A stretch of DNA of 64,000 bases from Thermoproteus uzoniensis 768-20 (GTDB taxonomy: Archaea; Thermoproteota; Thermoprotei; Thermoproteales; Thermoproteaceae), in contig NC_015315.1 of the NCBI RefSeq assembly GCF_000193375.1, positions 752,622 to 816,621 on the forward strand, in the 5' to 3' direction. Of this stretch, positions 4,055-52,214 are shown one piece after another. The notes under the pieces are model-generated. The model ran no database searches and was not told the origin of the DNA. It saw nothing but the letters and a program-made list of their open reading frames with translations. The position numbers were made by a program, and so were the translations under genes. Positions within the stretch are counted from its first letter, which is position 1; the number at the start of each line of letters is the position of its first letter.

Positions 4055-4432
4055 TCAGCAAATTCTGACCCAGACTCTGCCCTCCCGCCTGAAACACCTC
4101 CTGGCCTCTCTGTAGACGGCCAGCGTCTCCTCGAGGAAGGACCTGTCGGCGTACAGCACCACGCCGTCCTCCAAGGCCTCTAGAAGGAGGACGTTGCCCC
4201 TCCTCAACATCTCCAGAAATCTGTCGCTCCTGACGCCGAGCGGTTGCACGGCCGGATGCTCTAGGTCGAAGAGGACTCCGTAGGCCTCTCTGGGATCCGC
4301 CGGCAGGTCGTCGGCGACGACCAAGACGTCGTAGTCGCTCGACTCCGTGTAGTCTCCTCTGGCTCTAGAGCCGAAAAGCACCACGAGCTTAGCCCCGAGC
4401 GATTTATACCTCTCGACCAGCCCCTCCAACAC
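4055..4432 (-). CDS. MNT-type nucleotidyltransferase (partner of HEPN protein)
   Basis: A 125-residue minimal nucleotidyltransferase. The hallmark GSX10DXD is present as GSRARGDYTESSDYDVLVV near residues 21-39, holding the metal-binding Asp pair. The gene starts inside the 3' end of the HEPN gene (29-base overlap), the arrangement typical of HEPN/MNT modules. In the studied HepT-MntA systems (established knowledge) the MNT partner AMPylates and silences the HEPN RNase; here that is only inferred. The Cys/Arg-rich C-terminus (FRREGRVWVRIC) is not recognised. It is the last gene of the Rieske-SWIM-HEPN-MNT string. Confidence 0.85.
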   Translation of the reverse strand: MLEGLVERYKSLGAKLVVLFGSRARGDYTESSDYDVLVVADDLPADPREAYGVLFDLEHPAVQPLGVRSDRFLEMLRRGNVLLLEALEDGVVLYADRSFLEETLAVYREARRCFRREGRVWVRIC

Positions 4433-4805
4433 GGCCCTCGACCCAGCCCAAGACAGCCTCTGCGCATTTTATACAGGTCTCGGCGTCTCTGTCGGTGTAG
4501 TAGTCCATGGGGGCGCCCTCGGCGAAGGCGTCGGGATACCTCGTGGGTATGTACTGTTTGTCCAGATAGAGCAGACATTCCAAGATCTCCTGCGGCGGCT
4601 CGAGCCCCGAATCCCTCGCGAGATACGTCAGGGAGTGCCCCCTCCTCTCCTTGCCCAAGTAGTTGAGGAGGGCCTTGACGGCCTTCTCGGCGGCTTGGTG
4701 CGCCTCGTAGCAGGACTCCTCGTAGAGGCCGGCGCCCCGGTTCAAGCGGGCCGACTCCAAGTTCCTCCTCGCCTGCCTCAGCCAGTCCCTAAACCTCGCC
4801 ACCAC
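4404..4805 (-). CDS. HEPN domain protein
   Basis: A 133-residue all-helical HEPN protein paired with the MNT gene that overlaps its end. The start MVARFRDWLRQARRNLESAR and the helix AAEKAVKALLNYLGKERRGHSL are typical. The usual RNase motif of HEPN toxins, Arg, 4-6 residues, then His, is not obvious: the residues before His are ERRGH. It may therefore be a non-toxic or altered member. Two GTG codons (4805 and 4802) could each serve as start. It follows the SWIM gene by 3 bases and is probably co-transcribed with it. Confidence 0.85.
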   Translation of the reverse strand: MVARFRDWLRQARRNLESARLNRGAGLYEESCYEAHQAAEKAVKALLNYLGKERRGHSLTYLARDSGLEPPQEILECLLYLDKQYIPTRYPDAFAEGAPMDYYTDRDAETCIKCAEAVLGWVEGRVGGAGREV

Positions 4806-19014: not shown

Positions 19015-19737
19015 TTATTGGCCCATTATAAGTCTGCCGAGCTTCTCCTCGTCCAGCTCCTTGGCGGGGCCCGAGTACCTAAGCCTGCCCGTAACCATGA
19101 CGAACGCCCTATCGCCTATCTCGAGCGCCTTCCTGGCGTTCTGCTCCACCAGGAGGATCGTGATGCCCATATCCCTAATGGACTTAATTGCGGAGAACAC
19201 GTCGGAGGCTACTTTGGGCGCAAGCCCGGCAGTCGGCTCGTCGAGCATGAGGAGCTTGGGCCTCTTCATCAGCCCCATGGAGATGGCCAACATCTGCCTC
19301 TCGCCGCCCGAGAGGAACTTGCCCTTGCGGTTCTCCAGCTCCTTCAGCTTGGGGAAGAGCTCCAAGACCTCTCTAAGGGCCTTCTCGGCCTCCTCCGGCC
19401 TCACCCCGGCGGCCGCGGCGATTAGGTTCTCCCTAACGGTCAGCTCCGGGAATATGTTGGGCGTCCCGAAGTTGTTGGGGGACTGCATAACGTACCCGAC
19501 GCCAGCCTTCTGGATCTCCCCGGGGCTCTTCCCCGTCACGTCCCTCCCGTCGACCACGATAGAGCCGCTGAATATAGTCGCGAGGCCCGCTATGGCGTTC
19601 AGGAGAGTGGACTTCCCCGCGCCGTTGGGGCCCAGGAGGACGGCTATCTCGCCCTTCTCGACCTCCAGCGACACGCCGTTCAGCACGTGGAACTTGCCGT
19701 AGCCGGCGTTTAGGTCGGAGATCTTGAGGAGCGCCAT
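19015..19737 (-). CDS. livF: Branched-chain amino acid-type ABC transporter ATPase (LivF)
   Basis: A 240-residue ATPase of the LivF group. Walker A GPNGAGKST, Q-loop YVMQSPNNFG, signature LSGGERQML, Walker B LLMLDEPTAGL and switch His/Gln region LLVEQNARKAL are all present. It follows LivG by 1 base and pairs with it to drive LivH/LivM, whose genes lie on the opposite strand. Liv-type systems import branched-chain amino acids, or in some cases amides or urea; the actual cargo here is not shown. Confidence 0.93.
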   Translation of the reverse strand: MALLKISDLNAGYGKFHVLNGVSLEVEKGEIAVLLGPNGAGKSTLLNAIAGLATIFSGSIVVDGRDVTGKSPGEIQKAGVGYVMQSPNNFGTPNIFPELTVRENLIAAAAGVRPEEAEKALREVLELFPKLKELENRKGKFLSGGERQMLAISMGLMKRPKLLMLDEPTAGLAPKVASDVFSAIKSIRDMGITILLVEQNARKALEIGDRAFVMVTGRLRYSGPAKELDEEKLGRLIMGQ

Positions 19738-19738
19738 A

Positions 19739-20497
19739 TCACCCGCCTATGTAGCTCTCTATCACTTTGGGGTCCTTGGCCACGACGTCCGGCGGACCTT
19801 GCGATATGACCCTCCCGCTCGCCATGGCGTAGACGTAGTCCACGTACTTAAACGCTATGTCTATGCGGTGTTCCACGACCCAGAAGGTGACGCCCTTGGC
19901 GTTTATATCGCGGATAGTCTGGAATATGGAGTGGGCCTGCGCTATGGGTATGCCCGCTATCGGCTCGTCGAGGATTATCAGCTTGGCCCCCGCCATGAGG
20001 GCCCTCGCGAGCTCCAACAACTTCATCTGGCCGGCCGAGAGCGAGTAGGCGTAGCGATCCCACACGTCGCCCAGCCCGACCATGTCGAGGATTTTGAAGG
20101 CCCTCTCCGCCAGCTCTCTCTCCTGCCTTATCCACGCGCCCTCCCTCACGGCCTTCAACACGTCCTCGCCTACCTGCCCTCTAGCCACCACGAGGAGGTT
20201 CTCTATCACGGTCATGCGCTGGAAGACTTGCGGTATCTGGAAAGTCCTAACTATCCCCTCGGCGAAAACCTTGTGAGGAGGCCACCCGGTTATGTCGACG
20301 TCCCTCCCGTCGTCGTGGAAAACCACGCGGCCCGCCTCCGGCTTGTAGACCCCCGTCACTACGTTGATCAACGTGGTCTTCCCCGAGCCGTTAGGCCCGA
20401 TAAGCAACGTGACCTTCCCCCTCTCTATGTTCATGTCAACGCCGTCGAGCGCCCTAAATGCGCCGAACTGTTTGACTATACCCCTGATCTCAAGCAC
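19739..20497 (-). CDS. livG: Branched-chain amino acid-type ABC transporter ATPase (LivG)
   Basis: A 252-residue ATPase of the LivG group. Walker A is GPNGSGKTT, signature SLSAGQMKLLELARAL and Walker B LIILDEPIAGI; the LivG-typical insertion TVIENLLVVARGQVGEDVL is present. The start is GTG at 20497, 42 bases behind the stop of the binding-protein gene, with an AT-rich TATA-like stretch in the gap, so it may be both read through and independently started. It works with LivF and the permeases on the plus strand. Confidence 0.93.
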   Translation of the reverse strand: MLEIRGIVKQFGAFRALDGVDMNIERGKVTLLIGPNGSGKTTLINVVTGVYKPEAGRVVFHDDGRDVDITGWPPHKVFAEGIVRTFQIPQVFQRMTVIENLLVVARGQVGEDVLKAVREGAWIRQERELAERAFKILDMVGLGDVWDRYAYSLSAGQMKLLELARALMAGAKLIILDEPIAGIPIAQAHSIFQTIRDINAKGVTFWVVEHRIDIAFKYVDYVYAMASGRVISQGPPDVVAKDPKVIESYIGG

Positions 20498-20532: not shown

Positions 20533-20611
20533 AGAGGTTTTACGAGCTGAATAGGGGCTGTCCTTGCGGGAATACTGTTATCTGTCCGGTTGTGCCGTTG
20601 TAGAAGCCGGC
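20533..20611. repeat. Inverted repeat arm A1 (identical to 25417-25495)
   Basis: 79 bases at the 3' end of binding-protein copy 1, reverse-complementary and by my reading identical to 25417-25495 at the 3' end of copy 2. Identity includes the stop codon and about 8 bases beyond it, so it is not due to protein constraint alone. Confidence 0.8.
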
Positions 20612-21916
20612 GTCTATCCATGTCGGCGTGCCGTTGACTATGGCGACGCCCATTATCAGATAGCTGGCGTATATTCTGTCGTGGTACTGGTCGAGGTATA
20701 CCGGCCCGGTGACCCCGACAAACGTGCCGTTTTTGCCCCACTGCTCGAGCACCGAGTTTATGACAGTCGGGTCAGTGGAGCCGGTCTCGGCTATGGCGGT
20801 CATTATGAACATGGCGGCGTCGTAGGCGTAGGGATCGTACGCCACAGGAGGCTGTCCGCAGAACTGCTTATACTCCTGCACAAACTTCTGATAGCGCGGG
20901 TCGTTGGGGTTCGGAGCCGCAATAGTGGCGAGGAACTTGGCGTTAGCCAGAGCCTGGCCAGCTTGTTGCACCATCACGGAGGAGCCCGCTATGCCGTCGG
21001 TCCCCACCCACCTGACCTTGGAGAGCACCGGATCGCTGGCCGCCGCCTGCGCCACAGCGACGCCGTCTTGCTCGAAGGTGACCATTACGAAAGCCGCGTC
21101 GGGGCCTGGAGTGCCTAAGGCGGCTGAGGCTTTCTGCACGGCGGCTTGCTCAGCTGCGGGCATGGCAGAGGGAGACGGGTCGTAGCCGAAGCGGCCCAAC
21201 ACCTGTATGCCGTATTTGGCAGAGGCGTTGGCTATAGCCGCGGAGAGGCCTTGGCCCCAAGTATCGGCCCTATAGACGATCACAATTCTCTTGACGCCTA
21301 GGAAGTGCAGGAGGGCGGCTATGGCGTTTCCTTGGTAGAAGTCGGTCGGGACGAGCCTAAAGATGTAGGGCTTAGGCACGGCGAGCGCCGGCGATGTGGA
21401 GGACTGGCTGACCACAATTATGTGGTTCTGCTCGGCGAAGCTCATTATGGCGGAGACCTCCGAGCTCGCCATAGGCCCGACCACGAACCTAATACCTTGT
21501 GAGTATAGGGTCTGGAGCTTCTGCAGAGCGGTGTTGGGATCGGTCGCGGTGTCCTGCACGACGAGCTGGAATTGTATGCCCTTGTCGGCAAACATCTGGT
21601 TAGCGTTGTGGACGGCCAGCTTTATGGCGCACTGAGAGCCGAGGCCGTAGCTCTCCAACGCGCCGGTTAGAGGAAGCAAGGCACCTATGGTGACGACCTT
21701 GACGGTGGTAGTTGTCGAAGTTGCCGACATCGTCGCGGCCGTGCTTGTTGTTGCCGACATAGTCGCAGTTGCGGCTGTCGTCGAAGTCGTGCTGGCTTGC
21801 GTAGTGGAGGGAGCGGGGGGCGGCGCCGGCTTTTGGGATGCGTAGTACGCAGCTATCGCAGCTATTATTATCACAACTACGACTATTCCTATTATCAGTC
21901 CAGTTCTAGAGGCCAT
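20540..21916 (-). CDS. Liv-type substrate-binding protein, copy 1
   Basis: A 458-residue extracellular solute receptor of the LivJ/LivK type (periplasmic binding fold I). N-terminal membrane anchor LIIGIVVVVIIIAAIAAYYA (no lipobox Cys), then a Thr/Ser stalk (about residues 30-72), then the binding domain starting VVTIGALLPLTGALESYG. It is a close paralogue of the protein encoded at 24154-25488, with stretches of identical DNA. It differs mainly in the ligand-lining segments (SSQSSTSPAL, TDFYQGNAI), so the two receptors probably feed one permease with different ligands (inference). Divergent promoter with livH. Confidence 0.92.
   Translation of the reverse strand: MASRTGLIIGIVVVVIIIAAIAAYYASQKPAPPPAPSTTQASTTSTTAATATMSATTSTAATMSATSTTTTVKVVTIGALLPLTGALESYGLGSQCAIKLAVHNANQMFADKGIQFQLVVQDTATDPNTALQKLQTLYSQGIRFVVGPMASSEVSAIMSFAEQNHIIVVSQSSTSPALAVPKPYIFRLVPTDFYQGNAIAALLHFLGVKRIVIVYRADTWGQGLSAAIANASAKYGIQVLGRFGYDPSPSAMPAAEQAAVQKASAALGTPGPDAAFVMVTFEQDGVAVAQAAASDPVLSKVRWVGTDGIAGSSVMVQQAGQALANAKFLATIAAPNPNDPRYQKFVQEYKQFCGQPPVAYDPYAYDAAMFIMTAIAETGSTDPTVINSVLEQWGKNGTFVGVTGPVYLDQYHDRIYASYLIMGVAIVNGTPTWIDAGFYNGTTGQITVFPQGQPLFSS
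21093..21190. repeat. Inverted repeat arm B1 (nearly identical to 24838-24935)
   Basis: 98 bases in the middle of binding-protein copy 1, reverse-complementary to 24838-24935 with a single difference (a C/T in a synonymous position of the GYDPSPS segment). It encodes the hinge-near AAEQAAVQKASAALGTPG stretch. Confidence 0.75.
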
Positions 21917-21935
21917 GGCGGTCTTAGTTATACGT

Positions 21936-21998
21936 GGTATAAAAGCTTTGAACTATATAGACCTAAATGTACAATATAGCTGGCAATATTTTTAAATT
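21936..21998. promoter_or_regulatory. Divergent promoters of binding-protein copy 1 and livH
   Basis: GCTTTTATACC on the minus strand (21936-21946) lies 25 bases from the ATG at 21916. TTTTTAAATT on the plus strand (21989-21998) lies about 25 bases from the ATG at 22018. Both genes should be leaderless. The plus TATA decides the livH start over an ATG at 21967. Confidence 0.65.
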
Positions 21999-22017
21999 GG
22001 ACAACCTTCTGCGCGCT

Positions 22018-22968
22018 ATGTTCAACACATATGATTTCGTAAATAACGTGTTGGTGCCGGCCATCGTATACTCCAACGTCTACGCGCTGGCGTCCATAGG
22101 GCTGTCCATGACCTACATAACGACGAAGATACCGTCGTTCGCCCACGGCGATCTCGCCGCCGTCGGCGCCTATGCCGCCTTCTACCTCTTGTATTTTCTC
22201 TACGGAGGCCTCTGGCCGGGCTCGGTCTACCTCGCCATGCCGGCCGCGGCGCTTGCGGGCGCAGTCGCGGCGTATCTTTCCTACGTCGGCGTTTTTAGGC
22301 CGCTCATAAGGCGCGGCGCCAGCATAACCGTGTTGATGATCGCCTCGTTCGGCCTCCACTTCTTGATATTCGGCATATTGGCCATACTCGACAGCATCGC
22401 CCAGACGGTCTACGGCTGGAACACCCGCAACTTCTTGTTGAGCCCCGGCGAGATACGGATACCTGGCCTTACACAGAGCCAGACCACAGCCGTCACCTCC
22501 ACAATAGCTCTCGTGCTCGTCCTCGCCGCCCTCTACTACCTCCTTAACAGGACAAAGTTCGGCGTAGTGATGAGGGCCAGCATCGACAACGCCCCTCTGG
22601 CCAAGGCGCTGGGGATAGACGTGGAGAGGGTCTACGCCCTCTCCTGGCTCATAATAGGGGCTGTGACGGGGATAGCCGGGATATACATGGCGATGATATT
22701 CCCCGTCACGGAGGAGCTCGGCTGGCTCAGGCTACCCCTCATATTCGTCGCCGTCGTTGTGGGCGGCCTCGCCAGCATCTACGGCGGGGTTATCGGCGGC
22801 TATATCGTGGGGTTCAGCATGGTGCTGGGCTTCAACTACATCCTGAACCCTCTGGGCCTGCCGTCGGAGTACGAGCTCGCGATACCGTTCGCCATAGTAA
22901 TAGCGACGCTCCTTCTGGCCCCCCAGGGCATAGCCGGCCTAATAGCGGCTAGGAGAGGCAGATCATGA
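22018..22968 (+). CDS. livH: Liv-type ABC permease LivH
   Basis: A 316-residue membrane subunit of the branched-chain amino acid-type ABC importer. Typical features are SIGLSMTYITTKIPSFAHGD near the N-terminus, the GVVMRASIDNAPLAKALGID cytoplasmic loop that contacts the ATPases, and about eight hydrophobic segments. The start at 22018 (MFNTYDFVNNVLVPAIVYSN) fits the TATA box. It overlaps livM by 4 bases. Together with livM and binding-protein copy 2 it forms the plus half of a split operon whose ATPases are on the minus strand. Confidence 0.93.
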   Translation: MFNTYDFVNNVLVPAIVYSNVYALASIGLSMTYITTKIPSFAHGDLAAVGAYAAFYLLYFLYGGLWPGSVYLAMPAAALAGAVAAYLSYVGVFRPLIRRGASITVLMIASFGLHFLIFGILAILDSIAQTVYGWNTRNFLLSPGEIRIPGLTQSQTTAVTSTIALVLVLAALYYLLNRTKFGVVMRASIDNAPLAKALGIDVERVYALSWLIIGAVTGIAGIYMAMIFPVTEELGWLRLPLIFVAVVVGGLASIYGGVIGGYIVGFSMVLGFNYILNPLGLPSEYELAIPFAIVIATLLLAPQGIAGLIAARRGRS

Positions 22969-24131
22969 CGAGAGACGTCACGATTAAGACCATAGCGCTC
23001 GCTGCGATACTCGCCGTCGTGGCGGCGCTTGCCTTCTTCTCTCCGCTTCCCCGCGACGTCAAGGTGCTTCTGCAGAACCTCTCTATATATATTGGTATAT
23101 ACGCTATCTACGTCATCAGCCTAAACCTAGAGGTCGGCTACCTCGGCCTCCCCCAGTTCGGGAAGGTGATGTTCTTAATAATCGGCGCGATAGCGGTGGG
23201 CGGCATCGCCGCGAAGCTCATACTGCTGATATACCAGTCCTACCTCCTCAAGGCCATCGGAGTTGCGCCGTTGAGCAACGTAGGGAACTACTGCATGTTG
23301 TACCAATACTCCGTCGGGTCCCTCGTCAACCAGCAACTGGCCCAGAACCCGGCGCTGGGCTTCGGCTACTTCCTCCTAGGGATAGCGCTGGCCATGGCGC
23401 TGTCCGCAGCCCTCGGCGTGTTGTTCGCCTACCCGGCCATAAGGCTGAGGGAGGACTACCTAGGCATACTCCTGCTCGTCAGCGGCGAGTTCCTGAGAGT
23501 CGTGACCTACTACGCCACGCCTGTCGCCTGCGGCGTCAACGGAGCCGTGATCCCCGACCCGTTCGCCTGGGCCTCCGGCGAGACTAGGACCTTGGTGTTC
23601 TTCGCCATAACTGCCGTGATGCTGGTCGTCACCTACCTCGTCTTCGACACAATAGGCAACTCGCCCTTCGGCAGAACCCTCAGAGCCATACGCGACGCCG
23701 AGACTGCGGCGGCCGTCTTCGGGAAGGACATCGTCAAGTTCAGGATAAGGGTGTTGGCCTTCGCCTCGGCCTTCGCCGGCCTCGCCGGCGCCCTCCTCGC
23801 CTACTACTTCGACTATACCATATTGGGGACCTTCCTGCCGATCTACACGTTCATAGGGTGGACCATGTTGATCTTGGGAGGGCAGGGGAACAACGTGGGC
23901 GCGATTGTGGGCGCCGTGATATACTACGCCATCCAGACCGTCCTAGACATATACAAAAATGCTCTGCAGGCGGTGCTCCACGCCGACCCGACCTATCTAG
24001 CCTATGCGATATTCGGCCTTGCGATAATACTGGTGCTGATGTATAGACCTCAAGGCATAGTTCCAGAGAAGCCTGTAAAAACTGTGGATTTGTATACAAT
24101 AAGAAAGGAAGTGCTAAACAAGAAAGATTAA
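22965..24131 (+). CDS. livM: Liv-type ABC permease LivM
   Basis: A 388-residue membrane subunit. The LivM signature GRTLRAIRDAETAAAVFGKD is near residue 235; about ten hydrophobic segments surround it. An unusual periplasmic loop (residues about 75-130, with NYCMLYQYSVGSLVNQQLAQ) separates the first helices. The short C-terminal tail is basic. It starts in the ATGA overlap with livH and ends 22 bases before binding-protein copy 2, with a small AT-rich spacer that may hold an extra promoter. Confidence 0.93.
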   Translation: MTRDVTIKTIALAAILAVVAALAFFSPLPRDVKVLLQNLSIYIGIYAIYVISLNLEVGYLGLPQFGKVMFLIIGAIAVGGIAAKLILLIYQSYLLKAIGVAPLSNVGNYCMLYQYSVGSLVNQQLAQNPALGFGYFLLGIALAMALSAALGVLFAYPAIRLREDYLGILLLVSGEFLRVVTYYATPVACGVNGAVIPDPFAWASGETRTLVFFAITAVMLVVTYLVFDTIGNSPFGRTLRAIRDAETAAAVFGKDIVKFRIRVLAFASAFAGLAGALLAYYFDYTILGTFLPIYTFIGWTMLILGGQGNNVGAIVGAVIYYAIQTVLDIYKNALQAVLHADPTYLAYAIFGLAIILVLMYRPQGIVPEKPVKTVDLYTIRKEVLNKKD

Positions 24132-24153
24132 ATACAACTTCTTTTCAAGGGCT

Positions 24154-25488
24154 ATGGCCTCCAAAACTGTTTGGATAGCGGTAGCAGTAATTGTCGTGGT
24201 TATAGCGGCGGTAGCCGCGCTCATGTATAAACCAGCCGCGCCGTCCCAGCCAACCGCCACGAGCCCCACGCCGACCAGCGCCGCGCCATCTAGCACGTCG
24301 ACGACCCAAGCAACTACCTCGACCACCGTCAAGGTAATCACCATAGGCGCCGAAGTGCCTCTATCGGGATCGCTCCAGTTCATGGGCACCAGCGGCCAGT
24401 GTGCCATACAGCTGGCTGTCCACGACGCTAACCAGATGTTTGCCGACAAGGGCATACAATTCCAGCTCGTAGTGCAGGACTCCGCCTGCGACCCCAACCT
24501 AGCTCTGCAGAAGCTCCAAACCCTATACTCACAAGGAATTAGGTTCGTCGTGGGCCTCACTTGCAGTAGCGAGCTTTCGGCCGTCATGAACTTCGCCGAG
24601 CAGAACCACATCTTGATTACCAGCATATCCACATCGCCGCTACTGGCAGTGCCCAAGCCCTACATCTTCAGGCTTCCGCCCACCGACAACGCCCAGGCTA
24701 GGGTTCTCGTCGCCCTCATGCATATGTTGGGCATAAAGAGGATTGTGATCGTCTATAGGTCAGACGCTTGGGGCCAGGGCTTGACGCAGGCAATCATCAA
24801 CGACTCTAAGCTGTACGGCATACAAGTCCTCGGCGCGTTCGGCTACGATCCGTCTCCCTCTGCCATGCCCGCAGCTGAGCAAGCCGCCGTGCAGAAAGCC
24901 TCAGCCGCCTTAGGCACTCCAGGCCCCGACGCGGCCCTCGAGATAGTGTCCTTCGACCAAGACGGCGCCGCGGTGGTCCAAGCCGCCATGAACGACCCAG
25001 TCCTCTCCAAAGTCAGGTGGTTCGGCACCGACAGCAACGTGTACGGCACGGCCATAATGCAGGCGGGCGGCAAGGCCCTCGCCGCGGCCAAGTTCATGGG
25101 CGCCGTGGCCTCCCCCAACCCCAACGACCCGCACTACCAGAAATTCGCCCAGGAGTTCAAGCAGTTCTGCGGCCACGCGCCGACCGGCTACGACCCGTAC
25201 TACTACGACACGGCCATGATGGTGCTTAAGGCCATAGCCGAGACTGGCTCCACTGACCCGACTGTCATAAATTCGGTGCTTGAGCAGTGGGGCAAAAACG
25301 GAACTTACGTGGGCGCCACGGGCCCCGTCTACTTCGACCAGTACCACGACCGCGAGTACGCCAGCTACCTAATCGTAGGCGTCGAGATAATAAACGGAAC
25401 CCCCACCTGGGTAGAAGCCGGCTTCTACAACGGCACAACCGGACAGATAACAGTATTCCCGCAAGGACAGCCCCTATTCAGCTCGTAA
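24154..25488 (+). CDS. Liv-type substrate-binding protein, copy 2
   Basis: A 444-residue paralogue of copy 1: N-terminal anchor (WIAVAVIVVVIAAVAALMY), Thr/Ser/Pro stalk, then a receptor domain beginning VITIGAEVPLSGSLQFMG. Extra cysteines (QDSACDPN, LTCSSEL) distinguish it from copy 1 and could form a disulfide. The C-terminal 25 residues, FYNGTTGQITVFPQGQPLF and neighbours, are the same in both. It faces copy 1 across the livHM genes, so the whole block has near dyad symmetry. Ligand specificity is unknown. Confidence 0.92.
   Translation: MASKTVWIAVAVIVVVIAAVAALMYKPAAPSQPTATSPTPTSAAPSSTSTTQATTSTTVKVITIGAEVPLSGSLQFMGTSGQCAIQLAVHDANQMFADKGIQFQLVVQDSACDPNLALQKLQTLYSQGIRFVVGLTCSSELSAVMNFAEQNHILITSISTSPLLAVPKPYIFRLPPTDNAQARVLVALMHMLGIKRIVIVYRSDAWGQGLTQAIINDSKLYGIQVLGAFGYDPSPSAMPAAEQAAVQKASAALGTPGPDAALEIVSFDQDGAAVVQAAMNDPVLSKVRWFGTDSNVYGTAIMQAGGKALAAAKFMGAVASPNPNDPHYQKFAQEFKQFCGHAPTGYDPYYYDTAMMVLKAIAETGSTDPTVINSVLEQWGKNGTYVGATGPVYFDQYHDREYASYLIVGVEIINGTPTWVEAGFYNGTTGQITVFPQGQPLFSS
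24838..24935. repeat. Inverted repeat arm B2
   Basis: Partner of 21093-21190: one mismatch over 98 bases when reverse-complemented. Confidence 0.75.
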
Positions 25489-25495
25489 AACCTCT
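25417..25495. repeat. Inverted repeat arm A2
   Basis: Partner of 20533-20611: identical over 79 bases when reverse-complemented, including the stop codon and the first bases of the 3' flank. Confidence 0.8.
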
Positions 25496-25501
25496 TCTTT
25501 T

Positions 25502-25912
25502 TTATTCCCTTATTCTTATCAGGAAGGCGGCGAGGTCTAGGACGTCCCTAACGCTGAGGATGCCCACCAGCTTCCCCTCCTTGTCCACCACGGGGAGGTG
25601 CCTGACGTTCAGCTCTCTCATCTTCTCCACAGCGTCGAGTAGCGGGGCGTCCTCCGCTATCGTGACGGGGTTCTCGGTCATCACCATCCAGATCGGCGTA
25701 TCGGCCGAAAGCCCCTTGGCGCATACGTAGACGAGATCCCTCTCCGTGACTATGCCCACGGGCCTCCCCGCCTCGTCCACCACGACGACGCTGCCTATCT
25801 TCTTCTCGTACATGGAGTTGGCCACCTCCTTAACCGGCGTGTTCTTGCCGGCAGTGACGACCTCCCTAACCATTACGTCCGAGACCCGGAGCGGCACGGC
25901 CCTCCTGGGCAT
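25502..25912 (-). CDS. CBS-domain pair protein
   Basis: A 136-residue protein made of two CBS domains (about residues 10-62 and 75-130), seen as MVREVVTAGKNTPVKEVANS with IGSVVVVDEAGRPVGIVTERD, and VRHLPVVDKEGKLVGILSVRD. Such Bateman modules bind adenosyl nucleotides and sense energy charge. The ATG at 25912 has a minus-strand TATA AGATATAATAG about 25 bases upstream (25932-25942). It converges on binding-protein copy 2 with a 13-base gap. The target is unknown. Confidence 0.92.
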   Translation of the reverse strand: MPRRAVPLRVSDVMVREVVTAGKNTPVKEVANSMYEKKIGSVVVVDEAGRPVGIVTERDLVYVCAKGLSADTPIWMVMTENPVTIAEDAPLLDAVEKMRELNVRHLPVVDKEGKLVGILSVRDVLDLAAFLIRIRE

Positions 25913-25963: not shown

Positions 25964-28678
25964 CTAGATAACGGGCCGGCGCCTGCGGCGCCTTACTGCG
26001 TATATTACGACGCCGGCCGGCACGCCGTAGGCCGCCGAAGTTAATAGCCAGTCCACCGACCACTTGACCTCCAGGTCGAGCGGGCCGTGGACGAACGCGA
26101 CGTAGCCGGGCTCTTTGAGGAAGACGCCGCGGAAGATCTCGGCGGGGGCCACCGCGACGGTCGCGCCTGGGGCCAGCCACGCCGTGTAGTTCATCTGCTC
26201 CGAGCCGTTCACCGCTACGGGATATTCGCTGTGTATACGGACCAGATACTGTAGCGACCAGACAGCTGTGGCGTTGACGGGCCCGCGCACAGCCAGAGAC
26301 AGCTCGGTCGAGTTGGCCGCCACCGCTCTAGTGCCGTTGCCGAAGTAGTAGATCGGCGGGATTCTGACGACGACAACGGCCGACTCGTTGAGCCACGCTG
26401 TGTATCTAGTAGCCGCGGTGCCGTTGACGTATATCGGTATCGGCGAGCTTATGGTGACTAGGTACTGCGGGATCCAGTAGACCTTCACGACGATCGGCCC
26501 GACGACAGCCACGGCCGAGGACGAGTTGAGGGAGGCGAGGCGCGAGCCGTTGCCGGTGTAGACGTAGCGCGGTATAGTCAGATTCAGCACAGCGCCGGCC
26601 GGGACCCACTGGGAGAAGTTGAGGGCGGGCGCGCCGTCGATATAGACGGGGGCCTCGCTGTAGATCTGGACTAGGTACTGCCTCTCGAACGCCACGGTCA
26701 GGTTGAGGGGCCTCTCGACGGCCAGGACCTCGGAGCCGTTGAGCGCGGCCAGCCTCGTGCCGTTCCCCAGATATACGTACCTCGGTATCTCGATGTCGAG
26801 GGAGGAGCCCGCGTCGGCCCACAGGGAGAGCTTGGCTGCGTTGATGCCGTTCACTACGATGGGCGCCGGCGAGCTTATGGAGACTAGGTACTGCTTGATA
26901 TAGGACGCCTCTATCCTCAGAGGCGACGACACGGCCAACGTGACGTTGCCCCGGTAGGCCGCCCCGTTTACGGATATCCCGGAGAAGGCCAGCCGGGTGC
27001 CGTTGCCGAGATAGAGGACCTCAGGCGCCAGGACAGCGAGCACCGACCCCTCGCCGACCCACTCCGTGAGGTTCTCGGCCTCGATCCCGTTGACGTATAT
27101 CGGCACAGGCGATTCTACGGAGACCAGATACTGCCTCTCCCACAAGACACGGACCTCGGTCGAGCCGTGGAGGGCGACCGACAACTCGGTCCCGTTGGAG
27201 GCGAGGGTCCCGTTGACAGAATAGCCGAGGAGGACGTACCTCGTCCCGTTGGGCAGATACACGTAGCGCGGCCTCGTCAAGTTGAGGACGTAGCCGGGCG
27301 CCTCGAGGGACGCGTTCGCCCCGCCGGCCAACGGGTCGTATATCGTCAGGAGCACGAAGGCCGTGCGCAGAAACGCCGGCCTCTCCAAGCCGGCCGACAC
27401 GTAGACCTCGCCGGGCCCCACTGCGGTCGCGTTGGCGCCCAGTGCGGCTTCGGCGGTATGGACGCCGAAACTCCAGACGAAGGGCACGGGCACGAGGTAG
27501 TCGCCGCGCTTGAAATACAGCGCGAGGTCCGCCGACATAGAGCGCACGTAGGTGCACTCGGAGCTCCACGGCCCAGCCACCACGAGCTCTGCATCGGCCA
27601 GCGGATTTCCCGGCGGCTTTACGACGAGCCTCGCGTAGGTCGCGGGCACCCTTATCGTGACGTTGTCGTACCAAGTTATGTGGGCCCCGTCCAGCGAGTA
27701 GCCGAAGGCGGCCCACGGAAGCCCCTCTGCAGAGAGGCCGGACTTCACCACGAGGTAGATCTGTTGCGGAGCGGGCCGAGGCGGCCGCAAGCTCGATGCC
27801 GAGTAGAAGCCTCCCGCCACGCGCCCCGAGCCGGCGATTAGGCCCGGCGAGAGGGCAGCAGAGCTCTCCGTGTCGTTCCAGACGTTGTCCCAGATCTCTA
27901 CGATCCCTTTAGAGGAGTTGTAGCTAGCTATATCCTGGAGCCAGTAGTACTGCGTCCCGCCGTCCGCGGTCCTCACCTCCATCTCCACGTTGAGCTGTAC
28001 GCTGAACCACCTGCTCCCCGGCTCCGCCGACAGCGTGGGGCAGTAGCCCGGCTCCTCGGTATCTGCGCCATATACGGCGACTCTGCCCACGAACATGTCC
28101 GTGGAGTAGCTGTACGCGACGAGCCTCCCGCCGGCGAGGCCTATGCCGTAGTCGGCCGCACCCACGGCGACGGCGGGCCCCTCGGGCTTCGGCGAGGCCG
28201 ATACGGCGAGGAAGACTAGGGCCGGCTCGTCGGTCGAGTTGTTGTAGGCCACGACGTAGTAGACGCGCCCAGCTGGCAACTCCTCGGAGAGGTAGACCTC
28301 GCCGCCGTAGGCCTCGGCCAGATACCGCGCGGAGCCCCCCTCGCTGAAGGCGAGGTACTGCTCTCTATCCATTATATAGATTAGGACCGGCGAACTCGAC
28401 CACGCATAGACCTCCACATAGGAGGCGGGCGGCCCGGTCAAGTTCAGCGTCACCGGGAGGAAGTAGCCAGGCTTGAGGAGAGAGAAGTACGCGTAGCTGT
28501 AGTTGGCGCCGAAACCCGCCGAGGTCTCGACGAGGGACAAATTTAGGGGGTTGAGGTAGGTGAACATGGAGGGCTCCGGCTGGACTACGTTGAGGCCCAG
28601 CACCGAGTAGCCGGCGACAAAGCCGGCGGCCAGCAGAACGAGGAGTAGAGCCGGCTCCGCGCCACGCGGCTCGCGCAT
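25964..28678 (-). CDS. Thermopsin-like surface protein with five C-terminal repeats
   Basis: A 904-residue cell-surface protein. Signal segment ALLLVLLAAGFVAGYSVLG; an N-terminal beta domain (VLIYIMDREQYLAFSEGG); then a region resembling the thermopsin acid-protease family A5 (about residues 190-440: VEMEVRTADGGTQYYWLQDI, VEIWDNVWNDT, FGYSLDGAHITWYDNV). From about residue 511 come five repeats of roughly 66-82 residues, each of the form QYLV-I-S-P-IYVNG ... W ... P-YVYLGNGTRLA, similar to InlB B-type repeats. A C-terminal helix and RRRRRR tail anchor it. Many N-glycosylation sites. The ATG at 28678 (MREPRGAEP) is preferred over an upstream ATG. The active protease state is inferred only. Confidence 0.75.
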   Translation of the reverse strand: MREPRGAEPALLLVLLAAGFVAGYSVLGLNVVQPEPSMFTYLNPLNLSLVETSAGFGANYSYAYFSLLKPGYFLPVTLNLTGPPASYVEVYAWSSSPVLIYIMDREQYLAFSEGGSARYLAEAYGGEVYLSEELPAGRVYYVVAYNNSTDEPALVFLAVSASPKPEGPAVAVGAADYGIGLAGGRLVAYSYSTDMFVGRVAVYGADTEEPGYCPTLSAEPGSRWFSVQLNVEMEVRTADGGTQYYWLQDIASYNSSKGIVEIWDNVWNDTESSAALSPGLIAGSGRVAGGFYSASSLRPPRPAPQQIYLVVKSGLSAEGLPWAAFGYSLDGAHITWYDNVTIRVPATYARLVVKPPGNPLADAELVVAGPWSSECTYVRSMSADLALYFKRGDYLVPVPFVWSFGVHTAEAALGANATAVGPGEVYVSAGLERPAFLRTAFVLLTIYDPLAGGANASLEAPGYVLNLTRPRYVYLPNGTRYVLLGYSVNGTLASNGTELSVALHGSTEVRVLWERQYLVSVESPVPIYVNGIEAENLTEWVGEGSVLAVLAPEVLYLGNGTRLAFSGISVNGAAYRGNVTLAVSSPLRIEASYIKQYLVSISSPAPIVVNGINAAKLSLWADAGSSLDIEIPRYVYLGNGTRLAALNGSEVLAVERPLNLTVAFERQYLVQIYSEAPVYIDGAPALNFSQWVPAGAVLNLTIPRYVYTGNGSRLASLNSSSAVAVVGPIVVKVYWIPQYLVTISSPIPIYVNGTAATRYTAWLNESAVVVVRIPPIYYFGNGTRAVAANSTELSLAVRGPVNATAVWSLQYLVRIHSEYPVAVNGSEQMNYTAWLAPGATVAVAPAEIFRGVFLKEPGYVAFVHGPLDLEVKWSVDWLLTSAAYGVPAGVVIYAVRRRRRRPVI

Positions 28679-28698
28679 GTCGCATCTCGGCGGGCCAA

Positions 28699-28709
28699 TT
28701 TTTAAATTT
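28699..28709 (+). promoter_or_regulatory. TATA box of the aminotransferase gene
   Basis: TTTTTAAATTT. Its centre is only 6 bases before the ATG at 28710 but 24 bases before an in-frame GTG at 28728, which therefore may be the true start. Confidence 0.55.
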
Positions 28710-29696
28710 ATGTTGGGCTTGGCGGCGGTGGTCGAGACCTTCAAATGGCTCAGGGAGCGCCAGGCGCGTTGGGATCTCGCGAACAGCGGGGTCTGGCCCC
28801 TGGACTATAGGGAGTATCTGGCCGAGCCGGGGGCCGACCTCGCCGGGCTGGTGTCGGAGCTCTACGGGGTCGACAGGCGGTCGGTCGCGCTTACGTCGGG
28901 GGCCCAGGAGGGCAATTTCCTGGCCCTCTGGGTCCTCAGGAAGAGGGCCGAGAAGGTCGTGGTCTTCCCGCCCGAGTACGAGCCCCTCGCCCTCCTGCCG
29001 GAGGAGTTCGGCCTGCGGAGAGTCGAGGGCTCCGGCGACCCCTTCAGCTACGTGGAGAGGGGCGCGGTCCTCCTATTCTCCAACCCCAACAACCCCACGG
29101 GCAGATACCTCGCCCCGCGCGCCTTGTCGGAGCTGGCCGACGAGGCCAGGAGGAAGGGCGCCTACGTGGTCGCCGATATAATATTCATAGACTTCGTCGA
29201 CGGGAGGCCGAGGGGCTTCCCCGCCGAGAACGCCGTGTTCAACTACAGCACCGACAAGTTCTTCACGAGCTCGGTGAGGGTCGGCTGGAGCTTCGGCGAT
29301 AGGGCAATCGTCGAGGCCATGTCTGAGGCCAAGGATCTCTTCAACCCAGGCCCCAAGGAGCTGGAGGCGAGGGCCGGCTACGGCTTCTTGTCGAGGAGGG
29401 AGGAGGTCAGGGCGAGAAACGCCGCCTGGATCTCCGCCAACTGGGCCGCGCTCAAGAAGGCGCTGGGCGGGGCTGCCGTCGACTACGCGGAGCACATGCC
29501 GGTGGCCTTCCTGCATCTGCAGTGCGACGGCGTGGAGGCCGCCGAGAGGCTTCTGGCCAGAGGCGTCTCGACAGTCCCAGGCCGCTTTTTCGGCGTCGAC
29601 AAGGCGTTGAGGGTCGGGCTAGCCAGAGTGAGGCCTGAGGAATTCGCCGAGCCCCTCTCGGCGCTGTCGGAAGGGCTGGCCGACTGCCTAGGATAG
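28710..29696 (+). CDS. PLP-dependent aminotransferase, class I/II
   Basis: A roughly 325-residue fold-type I aminotransferase. Visible marks: LTSGAQEGNFLAL (cofactor phosphate side), SNPNNPTGRYL, VADIIFIDFVDG (Asp and aromatic residues over PLP), STDKFFTSSVRVGW (the Lys forms the Schiff base) and LRVGLARV (substrate-carboxylate Arg). Shorter than the usual 370-400 residues, mainly at the N-terminus. The amino donor is not evident; the gene is alone and diverges from the thermopsin-like gene. The start is ATG 28710, or GTG 28728 by promoter spacing. Confidence 0.85.
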   Translation: MLGLAAVVETFKWLRERQARWDLANSGVWPLDYREYLAEPGADLAGLVSELYGVDRRSVALTSGAQEGNFLALWVLRKRAEKVVVFPPEYEPLALLPEEFGLRRVEGSGDPFSYVERGAVLLFSNPNNPTGRYLAPRALSELADEARRKGAYVVADIIFIDFVDGRPRGFPAENAVFNYSTDKFFTSSVRVGWSFGDRAIVEAMSEAKDLFNPGPKELEARAGYGFLSRREEVRARNAAWISANWAALKKALGGAAVDYAEHMPVAFLHLQCDGVEAAERLLARGVSTVPGRFFGVDKALRVGLARVRPEEFAEPLSALSEGLADCLG

Positions 29697-47526: not shown

Positions 47527-49650
47527 TTAATCTCTGCCCTCTTCTTCTCTCTTCTGCGTCCCCCATGTTCTTGTCTCTTCTCCTTCTAGCGGCTCTAGTC
47601 TTATTACTTTTCTACGTTTTCTGACAGCTAACACAGCGGCGAGGACGGCTACAGAAGCCGCGACGGCAATCACAAACAAAGGAGCTTCACCAGACAGCAA
47701 AGTAGAAGACGACGAAGCGATAATAGTCCTAGTAACCACAGAAGAAACAGTAACAGTGGATACAGAAGGCGAAGAAGCAACGACAGAAGTAACCGTCAAG
47801 ACTGCCGTGGTGGTGACTGTAGCGGCGGTACCCGTAGGCACCGCACTCGTGGTCGATGACTCGATCCCTGTTGGGACAACTATCTTTACGGTTTTCACTT
47901 CCCCTGGCTTTAGCTCTATCTGTTCGGTTATGTTTTTCCCCTCCGTTAAGATCTCCACGGTGTAGTTTCCGGCGAGTAGCTCCAGCCCGGCAGGCGGCTT
48001 CTGGAAGCTCATGGAGATTGGACCCTCTAGCAGAACCTCGCTGGGCTGTATCTGCCGGCCTGAGCTGTTCACAACCACTATGCTGAGATTTGCCGTGGGT
48101 ATCTGGACGACGGCGTTAACGACCTCGCCTGCCTCGACAACGACGGCCTTTTCGAACTTCTTCCCGAAAGCCTTTGCCGCAACCACGTAGTTGCCGGCCA
48201 AAACCTCTAGAGGCCCTACAGTTCCGTTGCCAGAAGCCACCCCGACGATCTCGACAGGCCAGCTATCCACCACTCTCCCGAAGCTATCCACCACTCTCGC
48301 CGATAGCCGGCCGGTCGGTACCCGCACCACAATCTCGCTACCGTTAACAACAAACGTAGTGCTGTAAAAGAAGCCCGGCCCGTAGATCCTCGCTATATAC
48401 CTCGTTCCCTGGAGCAACTTAGCTTTCGCCACACCGTCGCCACTGGCCACAAGCACATTGGTGCTCGGATACACCACGTCTATGTGCCAATCCTCAACAG
48501 AGCCAAAACCATCGACCACGCTGACAGAAACCGGAACGGCAGGCAGAGGAATAGAAATCGAGAAATAAATAACTCCGGTTACATTAACAGCAGGTGCCCA
48601 GTGAACATCGGGCCCGGGCATAGCGGTTCCGATCGCATATATATTAAGCCCATCAGAGGCAGTAGTAATAATTTTGCCGAATCCATTTATTATTTTAAGA
48701 CCATAATATTCATTCTGAATATTGTTTAATATTAATGGCTCTAAGTCAATAACATTTATCTTATTTAAATTTAAATCTAGTATCAATAGTTTATAGTCAG
48801 CAGTAACTACATATAATAGGTTACCTGCATATACTACTCCTACTATAGTAAAGTTTCCGGTGAAGCTGGCCAGTTCTGTGCCGTTCGGGCTGTACTTTAC
48901 TATGCCCCCTCTGCCGTATACGTAGGCGTCGCCCGCGTCGTCGAATGCGACTCCGAGGGCTCTTCCCGGTAGGCCCGGCTTCAATACCGTTGGCTTGGTC
49001 AGATTCCTATTCAAGACCAATATAGCCCACGTCGCGTTGCCACCTGAAATTGTATCCCCAACGACCCAAAGCTGGCCAGTGACTGGGTCAATGCCGACGT
49101 ACTGCGGTATGCCAATCATATTTGGTGAAGTATACTCAGCAATAAGATCCAGATTGAGATCTCTCTTCTCAATATGCCAATATGAATAATTCCCAAAAAT
49201 TTCTGAACCAACTACGTAAATATATTCATAATCAGATGTCACAAAATAAGCTCGACCCTTTATATAACTAACTTTACCGGTTGGTGCAAATGGATATATC
49301 GGAGTACTAATTAGAAATCCCCAGTATCCACCGGCCTCGCCCACTGCGTACAGCTTACCGTTAACAACGATGCAACTAGATAAAGTATTAGCATTTTTGA
49401 AGGAAGATAGACGCATACCAATACTAGCCCCGCCGCTTCCGTTTACTTTAAGAAATGAGAAAATACTCCATTCCATATCGGTGGTGTTTGCGATCCATTC
49501 ATAACCTACAATGTAACCGTATCGATCTCCCAAACATATACCGTACGATTGACCAGGCATAACAATAAATCCAACCCATGGAACTTGTGCGAAGATAAAA
49601 ATAGCCAACGACGAAAAGACTAGTATCAGTATAGATATGGTCCTGATCAT
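47527..49650 (-). CDS. Membrane-anchored surface protein with cytoplasmic EET tail
   Basis: A 707-residue protein: signal segment (ISILILVFSSLAIFIFA), a beta-propeller-like N-terminal domain (about 25-380, repeats such as AFDDAGDAYVYGRGGIVKYS), then Ig/carboxypeptidase-regulatory-like modules (FGRVVDSWPVEIVG, GNYVVAAKAFGKKF). A Ser/Thr/Val stalk (about 595-645), one membrane helix (LFVIAVAASVAVLAAVLAV) and a 38-residue charged cytoplasmic tail with EETRTW (Thr 693, 695) complete it. The first half is coded by clearly more AT-rich DNA than the second. It borders the FHA genes, and the tail could be a phosphothreonine docking site (inference). Confidence 0.75.
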   Translation of the reverse strand: MIRTISILILVFSSLAIFIFAQVPWVGFIVMPGQSYGICLGDRYGYIVGYEWIANTTDMEWSIFSFLKVNGSGGASIGMRLSSFKNANTLSSCIVVNGKLYAVGEAGGYWGFLISTPIYPFAPTGKVSYIKGRAYFVTSDYEYIYVVGSEIFGNYSYWHIEKRDLNLDLIAEYTSPNMIGIPQYVGIDPVTGQLWVVGDTISGGNATWAILVLNRNLTKPTVLKPGLPGRALGVAFDDAGDAYVYGRGGIVKYSPNGTELASFTGNFTIVGVVYAGNLLYVVTADYKLLILDLNLNKINVIDLEPLILNNIQNEYYGLKIINGFGKIITTASDGLNIYAIGTAMPGPDVHWAPAVNVTGVIYFSISIPLPAVPVSVSVVDGFGSVEDWHIDVVYPSTNVLVASGDGVAKAKLLQGTRYIARIYGPGFFYSTTFVVNGSEIVVRVPTGRLSARVVDSFGRVVDSWPVEIVGVASGNGTVGPLEVLAGNYVVAAKAFGKKFEKAVVVEAGEVVNAVVQIPTANLSIVVVNSSGRQIQPSEVLLEGPISMSFQKPPAGLELLAGNYTVEILTEGKNITEQIELKPGEVKTVKIVVPTGIESSTTSAVPTGTAATVTTTAVLTVTSVVASSPSVSTVTVSSVVTRTIIASSSSTLLSGEAPLFVIAVAASVAVLAAVLAVRKRRKVIRLEPLEGEETRTWGTQKREEEGRD

Positions 49651-50684: not shown

Positions 50685-52214
50685 ATGGTCCGTTTAGGAG
50701 ATTTAGAGGTCGACCTATACGCCAACAATACCCCCGACGGCTATTTAGATGTCGAGGTCAGGCTGAGCGCAAGGGGCCGGGGGCCTGCGCCCGAGACCAA
50801 CACCGCCTTCGCCATATTGATAGACAAGTCGAAGTCTATGGCCGACTTCGACAAGCTGGCGCACGCCATAGAGGCCGCGAAGGGGCTCGTCGAGAGCATG
50901 GCGCCGGAGGACATAGTCGCCGTCTACGTCTTCGACGAGAAGGTCAAGGCCTTGGTCCCGCCAACCCCAGTCGAGAAGGCCAGGAAGATGTTGGGCAAGA
51001 TAGAGAAGATAAAGCCGGGGACCTACACCCTGCTCTACCAAGCCCTCCTCCAAGTCATAGACGACTTGAGGGGGATCAAGCGGGGCCTCCCGCTCATGCC
51101 GAGGAGGGCCGTCCCCGAGAACATCCCCAAGAGGATAGTGGTGATAACCGACGGGGAGCCCTGGCCCTACTACACCGAGGAGAGGTGGTACGAGCACCTC
51201 GGCAAGGCCGCGGCGAGGTACGGCATAACCATATCGGCTATAGGCATCGGCGACGACTACAACGAGAAGATACTCTACGCCCTAGCCAACAGCTCGGGCG
51301 GCGCCTGGTACCACATATCGCAGATACGCGACATATCGCAAGTGCTTGCCAACGAGCTCAGGAGGGCGAAGACCGTCGTGGCGAGGAGGCCCAAGATAGC
51401 GGTGGAGCCTTCGGGGGCCGAGCTCGTCGACGTGAGGAAGATAGGCGCCGTCGTGTCGCGGCTACCGGTATCCAAGGAGGTGGAGCTGGAGGACGTGGCG
51501 GCCGGCGACGTGATCAGCGCGGTCTTCAGATTCAAGACCACCTCGCCCGACTACCGCGTCGAGGTCTCAGTCACGACAGACGCCGGCACCTACCGCGACG
51601 TGGTGACGAGCGACAAGCTGACCCCCGACAGGACCGCCACGCTGACCCTATCCATGGCCCAAGAGCTGGAGAAGCTGGCGGAAGGCGGCGTCGTGAGCGT
51701 GGAGGTGCTTAGGGCCGTCTCGGAGACCCCCACGGCGCCCGAGCCCTTGAGGAGGAAGGCGCAGAGGCTCCTCGAGGCCGCGCCGTCGGGCGAGGGCAAG
51801 GAGGCCTTCTGGGAGGCCACAGTGACCCTCACACTGCCCGTCGAGGAGCAACAGCTCGAGGCCACCGCAGAGAAGCCGGCCCCCCAGACGCCCGCCCCGC
51901 AACAAGCGGGGAAATGCGTCTTGACCTGTATAGAGACTGGGAAGAGCATGGAGGTGCCGATCCCGGCCCTACTCGGCCGCGAGGACCTCCAACAGATAAT
52001 ACCGCCGGAGAAGGTCCCCTACATATCGCGCCGCGTCGGCGAGAGGGCCCACCTGGCGATCTATAGAGGAGAAGACGGGATATATATCAAAGACGCCGGC
52101 AGCAAAGGCGGGGTATACGTCGAGGGCAAAAAGGTGGCGGAGCCCCTGAGGCTGGCGCAAGGCGCCGTGGTGAACCTAGCCGGTGTCGTCAACATAAGAA
52201 TTGAATGTAGCTGA
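50685..52214 (+). CDS. vWA-FHA protein
   Basis: A 509-residue cytoplasmic protein. The N-terminal von Willebrand A domain (about residues 35-220) carries the MIDAS start DKSKSM and the later ITDGEPW. A beta-sandwich and helical middle (about 225-370) and a Pro/Gln linker (KPAPQTPAPQQAG) lead to a C-terminal FHA-like domain: LLGREDLQQIIPPEKVPYIS, then GERAHLAIY, and DAGSKGGVYVEG. In the latter, the Asn of the usual SxNG is Gly, so pThr binding may be weakened. vWA plus FHA partners are known from ArnB/ArnA, which control archaella in Sulfolobus; here control of the neighbouring filament machine is inferred. Confidence 0.88.
   Translation: MVRLGDLEVDLYANNTPDGYLDVEVRLSARGRGPAPETNTAFAILIDKSKSMADFDKLAHAIEAAKGLVESMAPEDIVAVYVFDEKVKALVPPTPVEKARKMLGKIEKIKPGTYTLLYQALLQVIDDLRGIKRGLPLMPRRAVPENIPKRIVVITDGEPWPYYTEERWYEHLGKAAARYGITISAIGIGDDYNEKILYALANSSGGAWYHISQIRDISQVLANELRRAKTVVARRPKIAVEPSGAELVDVRKIGAVVSRLPVSKEVELEDVAAGDVISAVFRFKTTSPDYRVEVSVTTDAGTYRDVVTSDKLTPDRTATLTLSMAQELEKLAEGGVVSVEVLRAVSETPTAPEPLRRKAQRLLEAAPSGEGKEAFWEATVTLTLPVEEQQLEATAEKPAPQTPAPQQAGKCVLTCIETGKSMEVPIPALLGREDLQQIIPPEKVPYISRRVGERAHLAIYRGEDGIYIKDAGSKGGVYVEGKKVAEPLRLAQGAVVNLAGVVNIRIECS

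Follow-up and report, generated by a model that had tools for sequence, protein, structure and literature searches.

Can two receptor genes exchange DNA repeatedly and still remain two receptors, and can the same exchange turn over the genes that lie between them? This question is raised by a transporter locus of Thermoproteus uzoniensis 768-20 (genome G000, here T0; a single contig of 1,936,063 bases), located in the window, i.e. the whole stretch of 64,000 nucleotides that was analysed. A sequence-only reading of the locus had taken two receptor genes around livH and livM for a mosaic made by gene conversion. It had also proposed that the livHM segment could be inverted and thereby moved between two promoters. 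Here, the locus was compared across the genus.

The locus and the genomes compared

Both receptors, named A and B, passed the Pfam cut-offs as type I binding proteins of the Peripla_BP_6/ANF_receptor kind. Two BPD_transp_2 permeases and two ABC ATPases were also identified with Pfam, corresponding to livH, livM, livG and livF (Table 1). From these domains, the locus is a LIV-type (HAAT) ABC transporter, livHMGF, predicted to be of the branched-chain amino acid type. An AlphaFold2 model of A, obtained from an alignment of seven sequences (mean pLDDT 76) and used solely for fold comparison, resembles the amino-acid binding proteins 3ip5, 4q6b, 3td9 and 2lbp. A and B are the sole close copies in the T0 genome, the next matches being short or about 26% identical.

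The receptor genes had been described as facing each other. This was not confirmed: A runs along the minus strand from its start at 21916 to its stop at 20540, B along the plus strand from its start at 24154 to its stop at 25488, and they diverge. Their starts lie 2.2 kb apart in inverted orientation and their 3′ ends point outwards, with livHM in between; livH, livM and B are on one strand, A, livG and livF on the other. The true start of livH is likely the downstream ATG at about 22020, located 3′ of a TATA-like box that is visible by eye in the upstream sequence.

Table 1. Genes and shared tracts of the livHMGF locus (positions in the window).
Feature	Position	Strand	Evidence
livF ATPase, outside the inverting block	19015..19737	-	ABC_tran (E 6e-33)
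livG ATPase, outside the inverting block	19739..20497	-	ABC_tran and BCA_ABC_TP_C
79-nt identical 3′ tract, A copy, within the candidate crossover interval 20533-20650	20533..20611	-	Alignment
Receptor A, substrate-binding protein of ancestral pocket type	20540..21916	-	458 aa; Pfam ANF_receptor (E 1.8e-54), Peripla_BP_6 (E 1.4e-40); tree and pocket residues
26-nt exact tract, A copy	20757..20782	-	Exact-run listing
98-nt tract with one difference, A copy	21093..21190	-	Alignment
46-nt exact tract, A copy	21561..21606	-	Exact-run listing
livH permease	21967..22968	+	BPD_transp_2 (E 4.3e-42)
livM permease	22965..24131	+	BPD_transp_2 (E 3.3e-35)
Receptor B, duplicate confined to the genus, pocket altered	24154..25488	+	444 aa; Pfam ANF_receptor (E 1.3e-45); clade of five B
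46-nt exact tract, B copy	24425..24470	+	Exact-run listing
98-nt tract with one difference, B copy	24838..24935	+	Alignment
26-nt exact tract, B copy	25246..25271	+	Exact-run listing
79-nt identical 3′ tract, B copy, inside candidate crossover interval 25378-25495	25417..25495	+	Alignment
CBS-domain protein, convergent gene flanking the B end of the block	25502..25912	-	CBS (E 8.2e-36)

The genus set consisted of six Thermoproteus genomes, T0 to T5 (G000 to G005). T1 was taken as Thermoproteus sp. UBA157, T4 as AZ2 and T5 as CP80; T2 is probably T. tenax (single contig of 1,841,542 bases). T3 is a single contig as well, and T1 and T5 are draft assemblies. The complete livHMGF is present at the locus in four of the five relatives of T0. 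In the fifth, T4, the locus is cut by contig ends and shows A only, and T4 was omitted from the A/B pair counts. A search of T4 for livM, behind which B would lie, gave no match, and the lack of B in this genome is therefore uninformative. AU tests on segments were done with T0, T5, T1 and T2 only, T3 being omitted. The housekeeping tree was based on TrpRS, EF-2 and RpoB, with no RpoB match in T1. Locus trees were built without the livF of seven genomes, in which the wrong livF paralogue had been matched. Outgroup genomes are called Pyrobaculum-like, a genus name of our own assignment. No relative was found in the viral contigs searched.

Identical tracts alternate with diverged segments

In T0, the inverted arms comprise 20533-21400/24628-25495 (868 nt, 77% identity) and 21477-21709/24322-24554 (82%), and A and B share 1000 of 1335 codon-aligned nucleotides. 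The 79-base tract reported to run past the stop is exact, with 72 nt through the stop codon and 7 nt further. The reported 98-base tract with one difference consists of an exact run of 86 nt (21093-21178/24850-24935), one mismatch and 11 matches. Shorter near-identical tracts were found as exact runs of 46, 26, 21 and 20 nt. Between the tracts identity drops to about 60%, in agreement with the claimed alternation with diverged segments.

The clustering of identical sites is not due to chance, because the longest concordant run in T0 (35, over 730 variable sites) exceeds the maximum of 26 obtained in 5000 permutations (mean 10.2; p = 0.0002). Clustering persists on third positions alone (p = 0.0004), and run lengths beyond permutation were also obtained for the other four genomes with both receptors (p = 0.0002 each). 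Eight orthologue pairs were submitted to the same permutation as controls; five gave p > 0.05 and three p = 0.0015 to 0.035, with longest runs of 11-27.

Within-genome homogenisation by gene conversion

Alignment of orthologous pairs, which had been proposed as a check for concerted evolution, clearly showed that A and B are alike within genomes and that orthologues differ, in patches. In the mid tract (alignment codons 257-284), A and B are identical at 80/80 four-fold sites (T0, T5, T1 and T2 pooled), whereas orthologues of different species agree at 149/362 (T3 included). From the ATG onward, A and B of the same genome have identical leaders (216 nt in T1, 255 nt in T2, 96 nt in T5), and the leader sequence is a different one in each species. 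The T0 leaders are unlike each other, that of A resembling T5's and that of B the type of T1, which suggests that conversion between A and B has run both ways. Homogenisation is weakest in T3, with A and B identical at 4/17 four-fold sites of the leader and 4/14 of the mid tract; exact runs of 67, 45 and 38 bases occur elsewhere in this pair.

Grouping by class was rejected in AU tests for the leader (5.7e-6), the mid tract (2.8e-4) and the 3′ tract (1.4e-57), and grouping by species was rejected for the class-specific segments (1.7e-5). Over 10 genome pairs, which are not mutually independent, quartet sites amounted to 1056 concerted, 932 orthologous and 89 crossed, segregated by segment. Class-specific segments and residues are common across species, placing the duplication before the species splits. 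Species-specific identity at silent sites and the topology tests on segments bear out the earlier claim that the mosaic results from gene conversion. Taken together, the class-grouping segments around the pocket and the species-grouping tracts strongly support a conversion process that homogenises the scaffold while the ligand pockets stay apart.

Class-specific residues and the origin of receptor B

The alignment of T0, T5, T1, T2 and T3 contains 48 columns without any residue common to A and B. Within two residues of the aligned LBP/LivJ contacts, which were transferred by distant alignment and yield columns that are not mutually independent, 11 sites were concerted and 245 orthologous, against 697 and 674 elsewhere. 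Under the same restriction, class-diagnostic columns make up 15/40 near contacts and 33/345 elsewhere (Fisher p = 1.3e-5). Residues that are invariant within each class (A in 6/6, B in 5/5) were identified at LBP positions 18 (Y in A, M in B), 53 (T/C), 77 (M/T), 78 (A/C) and 100 (S/I). For LivJ, docking gave contact positions 18, 77-79, 100-103, 150, 202 and 276 (PMC6983066).

Cysteine is present at both 53 and 78 in all five B and at neither position in all six A. In LBP, position 53 is the disulphide partner of 78; position 226, likewise a ligand contact, was added to the docking positions in the contact set. Neither A nor the outgroup receptors examined have the cysteine pair that B carries at the places of LBP 53 and 78, and this pair may represent either a regained disulphide or convergence. 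The overall pattern points to probable selection against conversion of the pocket, and A and B may bind different ligands.

In the receptor tree, the five B sequences cluster together with support 100 and branch from within the Thermoproteus A sequences, with weak support for the exact branching point. In Pyrobaculum-like genomes, the livG-adjacent receptors display A's residues at most class-diagnostic pocket places. Both observations argue for B as the derived copy: by this evidence A is the ancestral type, and B was duplicated within Thermoproteus and has an altered pocket.

The block between the receptor ends is inverted between species

The proposed inversion of the livHM segment was found as a difference between species, affecting the whole A-livH-livM-B block, which is flipped in T1 and T2 relative to T0, T3 and T5 with breakpoints at the receptor 3′ ends. 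Gene order is A-livG and B-CBS in T0, T5 and T3, and B-livG and A-CBS in T2 and T1; on the cut contig of T4 only A-livG is visible. All genes and reading frames are intact in either orientation. The 60 nt 3′ of the stop track the flank gene and not the receptor (mean 0.70 over 25 pairs vs 0.58 over 14 pairs). Each flank, on the livG side as on the CBS side, has its characteristic sequence up to a few bases from the receptor stop codon, and class-diagnostic columns continue up to column 433. The last two observations point to a crossover in the last about 118 bases, i.e. within 20533-20650 with 25378-25495 (the last 36 codons, the stop and 7 nt), unless later conversion has blurred the limits.

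In Pyrobaculum-like genomes, 8/8 loci display A-livG with livHM running divergently, and livM is not followed by a B-type gene; in one of them a 41%-identical receptor lies further along. The unflipped order was therefore taken as ancestral. In the livHM and MFS trees, the flipped T1 is closer to the unflipped T0/T5 than to the flipped T2 (AU p = 0.004 for livHM, 0.025 for livHMG and 0.028 combined; MFS support 98), a topology that calls for two flips. B-specific segments favour T1 and T2 as sisters (AU p = 0.051 for the alternative), in which case one flip is enough, and housekeeping genes do not discriminate between one and two flips (p = 0.585). The data thus fit one or two inversions.

No tyrosine recombinase was detected with Pfam in five of the six genus genomes, T0 and T2 included, and ordinary homologous recombination is therefore the presumed process, with a RadA-type system as its probable agent. 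A resolvase-family gene is present in five of the six genomes; the sole one of T0 lies about 0.67 Mb from the locus.

Promoters and consequence of the inversion

The proposal that the flip moves livHM between two promoters is not supported by the sequence, as the A/livH promoter region lies inside the inverted block and would travel along. TATA-like stretches, defined as at least 7 A/T out of 8 bases between -18 and -38, were found upstream of A in 6/6, B in 4/5 and livG in 6/6 genomes, that of livG being just outside the breakpoint. Such stretches occur at 14.4% of 3000 random window positions; intergenic DNA is A/T-richer anyway, and the enrichment is modest evidence. Initiation signals should thus stay with their own genes after a flip. 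What the flip would alter, judging from this arrangement, is which receptor gene precedes livGF and can read through into it, and not the promoter of livHM. A regulatory role of the flip appears unlikely.

Explanations compared

The whole of the evidence makes it highly probable that two interchangeable receptors serve livHMGF, and that they undergo ectopic conversion sparing the pocket and at least one crossover inverting the block. According to this scheme, the LIV-type livHMGF would serve both A and B; B would derive from a duplication of A that took place at or close to the base of Thermoproteus, and would have gained a different pocket. The inverted copies would engage in ectopic recombination, in which short conversion tracts, non-reciprocal and with exact runs of about 25-255 nt, overwrite the signal/anchor, linker and scaffold as well as the 3′ end, from A to B and from B to A. 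Tracts erasing class-specific residues, ligand contacts above all, are absent and would presumably have been purged by selection, and docking to the shared permease may be the reason why conversion of the scaffold is tolerated. At least once, the same homology would have led to a crossover within the terminal stretch of about 118 nt, turning the A-livH-livM-B block relative to livGF. We give little credence to the further idea that the block flips to and fro in living populations, placing the ATPase genes behind either receptor, and that scaffold conversion swaps pockets as modules.

The tracts encode well conserved residues, as would be expected if they were merely the parts most constrained by purifying selection or codon bias, with no DNA transfer. 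Such constraint hardly accounts for the four-fold sites of the mid tract (80/80 within genomes vs 149/362 between orthologues), nor for the fast-evolving Thr/Ser-rich leader, which in T1 and T2 belongs to the parts homogenised most strongly, and grouping by class was rejected for the tracts. Species-specific silent identity refutes this explanation, which we regard as barely credible. The high identity of leader and tracts within genomes could also be produced by a recent and independent A/B duplication in each species, with the pockets alone diverging. This is just as remote, since class-specific residues are common to all A (6/6) and all B (5/5) and the B sequences group in a single clade (support 100). 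It is refuted by the class-specific segments being monophyletic.

Doubt could also be cast on the flipped order itself, as assembly artefacts at the repeats. T1 is a draft with an N gap near the locus and 3′-end repeats that reach 102 nt, across which its orientation could in principle be a misjoin. T2, however, is a single contig with a 3′ tract of 48 nt plus 3, and the flanking sequence is consistent on both sides. For T. tenax Kra1, the genome paper describes shotgun clones with inserts of 2.5 and 5 kb and gap closure by primer walking (PMC3189178); if T2 is this strain, such inserts should span the 3′ tract. An artefact is accordingly held to be very unlikely. The inversion might also be a working switch, similar to phase variation, in which livGF would be co-transcribed with A or B. 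Both orientations exist within the genus, every reading frame survives the flip, and the livHM and MFS trees require two flips. Against this stand the TATA-like box of livG itself outside the breakpoint in 6/6 genomes, the failure to find an invertase gene near the locus, and the B-specific segments, by which one flip may suffice, with indecisive housekeeping genes (p = 0.585). A switch of this kind is considered improbable.

Comparison with known systems

In E. coli, LivJ and LivK share LivHMGF. The LIV-I/LS system resembles the present one in having two related type I binding proteins for one permease/ATPase set, with matching Pfam domains, and solved structures related to the receptors described here include those of LBP and LivJ. 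It differs in that the Thermoproteus receptors are inverted around livHM, carry strong conversion tracts and are part of a block flipped between species.

A survey of long-lasting concerted evolution in prokaryotes lists, in its main text, 26 genes, of which seven are archaeal and all of these from methanogens (PMC6053082). It shares with our case the recurrent homogenisation of paralogues within genomes; the words transporter and binding protein are absent from that text, and here a receptor pair of Thermoproteota is homogenised in patches and not as a whole. Divergence islands persisting under ongoing gene conversion are described in the abstract on GOT1p1/GOT1p2 of Tigriopus copepods (PMC3728101), which concerns a eukaryote and mentions no inversion. 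Chromosome inversions of Thermococcales, as presented in the abstract of PMC5495485, likewise affect hyperthermophilic archaea and involve recombination on segments as short as 104 bp. They are made by a plasmid integrase, in contrast to T0 and T2 with no detected tyrosine recombinase.

No literature joining livJ, livK and gene conversion was found, nor does the main text of the T. tenax genome paper (PMC3189178) contain 'gene conversion' or 'inversion'. The searches gave no paper on this locus. Each element has precedents, namely LIV transporters, divergence islands under concerted evolution and archaeal inversions, and their combination was not found in the literature searched.

The locus offers a natural record of gene conversion opposing functional divergence residue by residue, with the scaffold rewritten in each lineage and the pocket kept, and hence a route to the residues that distinguish two receptors without structures. 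For a crenarchaeal lineage, it also documents ectopic recombination that involves tracts between some tens and about 250 bases long, and it is a concrete case of paralogues acting as inversion sites around their own operon. Trees and orthology calls of such receptors need caution, as they are mosaic.

Other genes of the window

Next to the CBS gene lies a gene (25964-28744, minus strand) for a protein of 926 aa, in which a Thermopsin domain (Pfam E 8e-53) is followed by repeated segments starting with QYLV. In T1, the CBS gene contains an N gap and aligns as several fragments (4281-4551 of the T1 locus piece), indicating that it is either broken or badly assembled. Further away in the window, two genes encode proteins of 707 aa (47527-49650, minus strand) and 1054 aa (52270-55434, plus strand). 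Neither of them has a Pfam match, and at E ≤ 1e-50 neither has a relative among the five other genomes of the genus. The same stretch contains a VWA protein with an FHA domain (50685-52214, plus strand) and a type II/IV secretion ATPase that also carries an FHA domain (59455-61674, plus strand).
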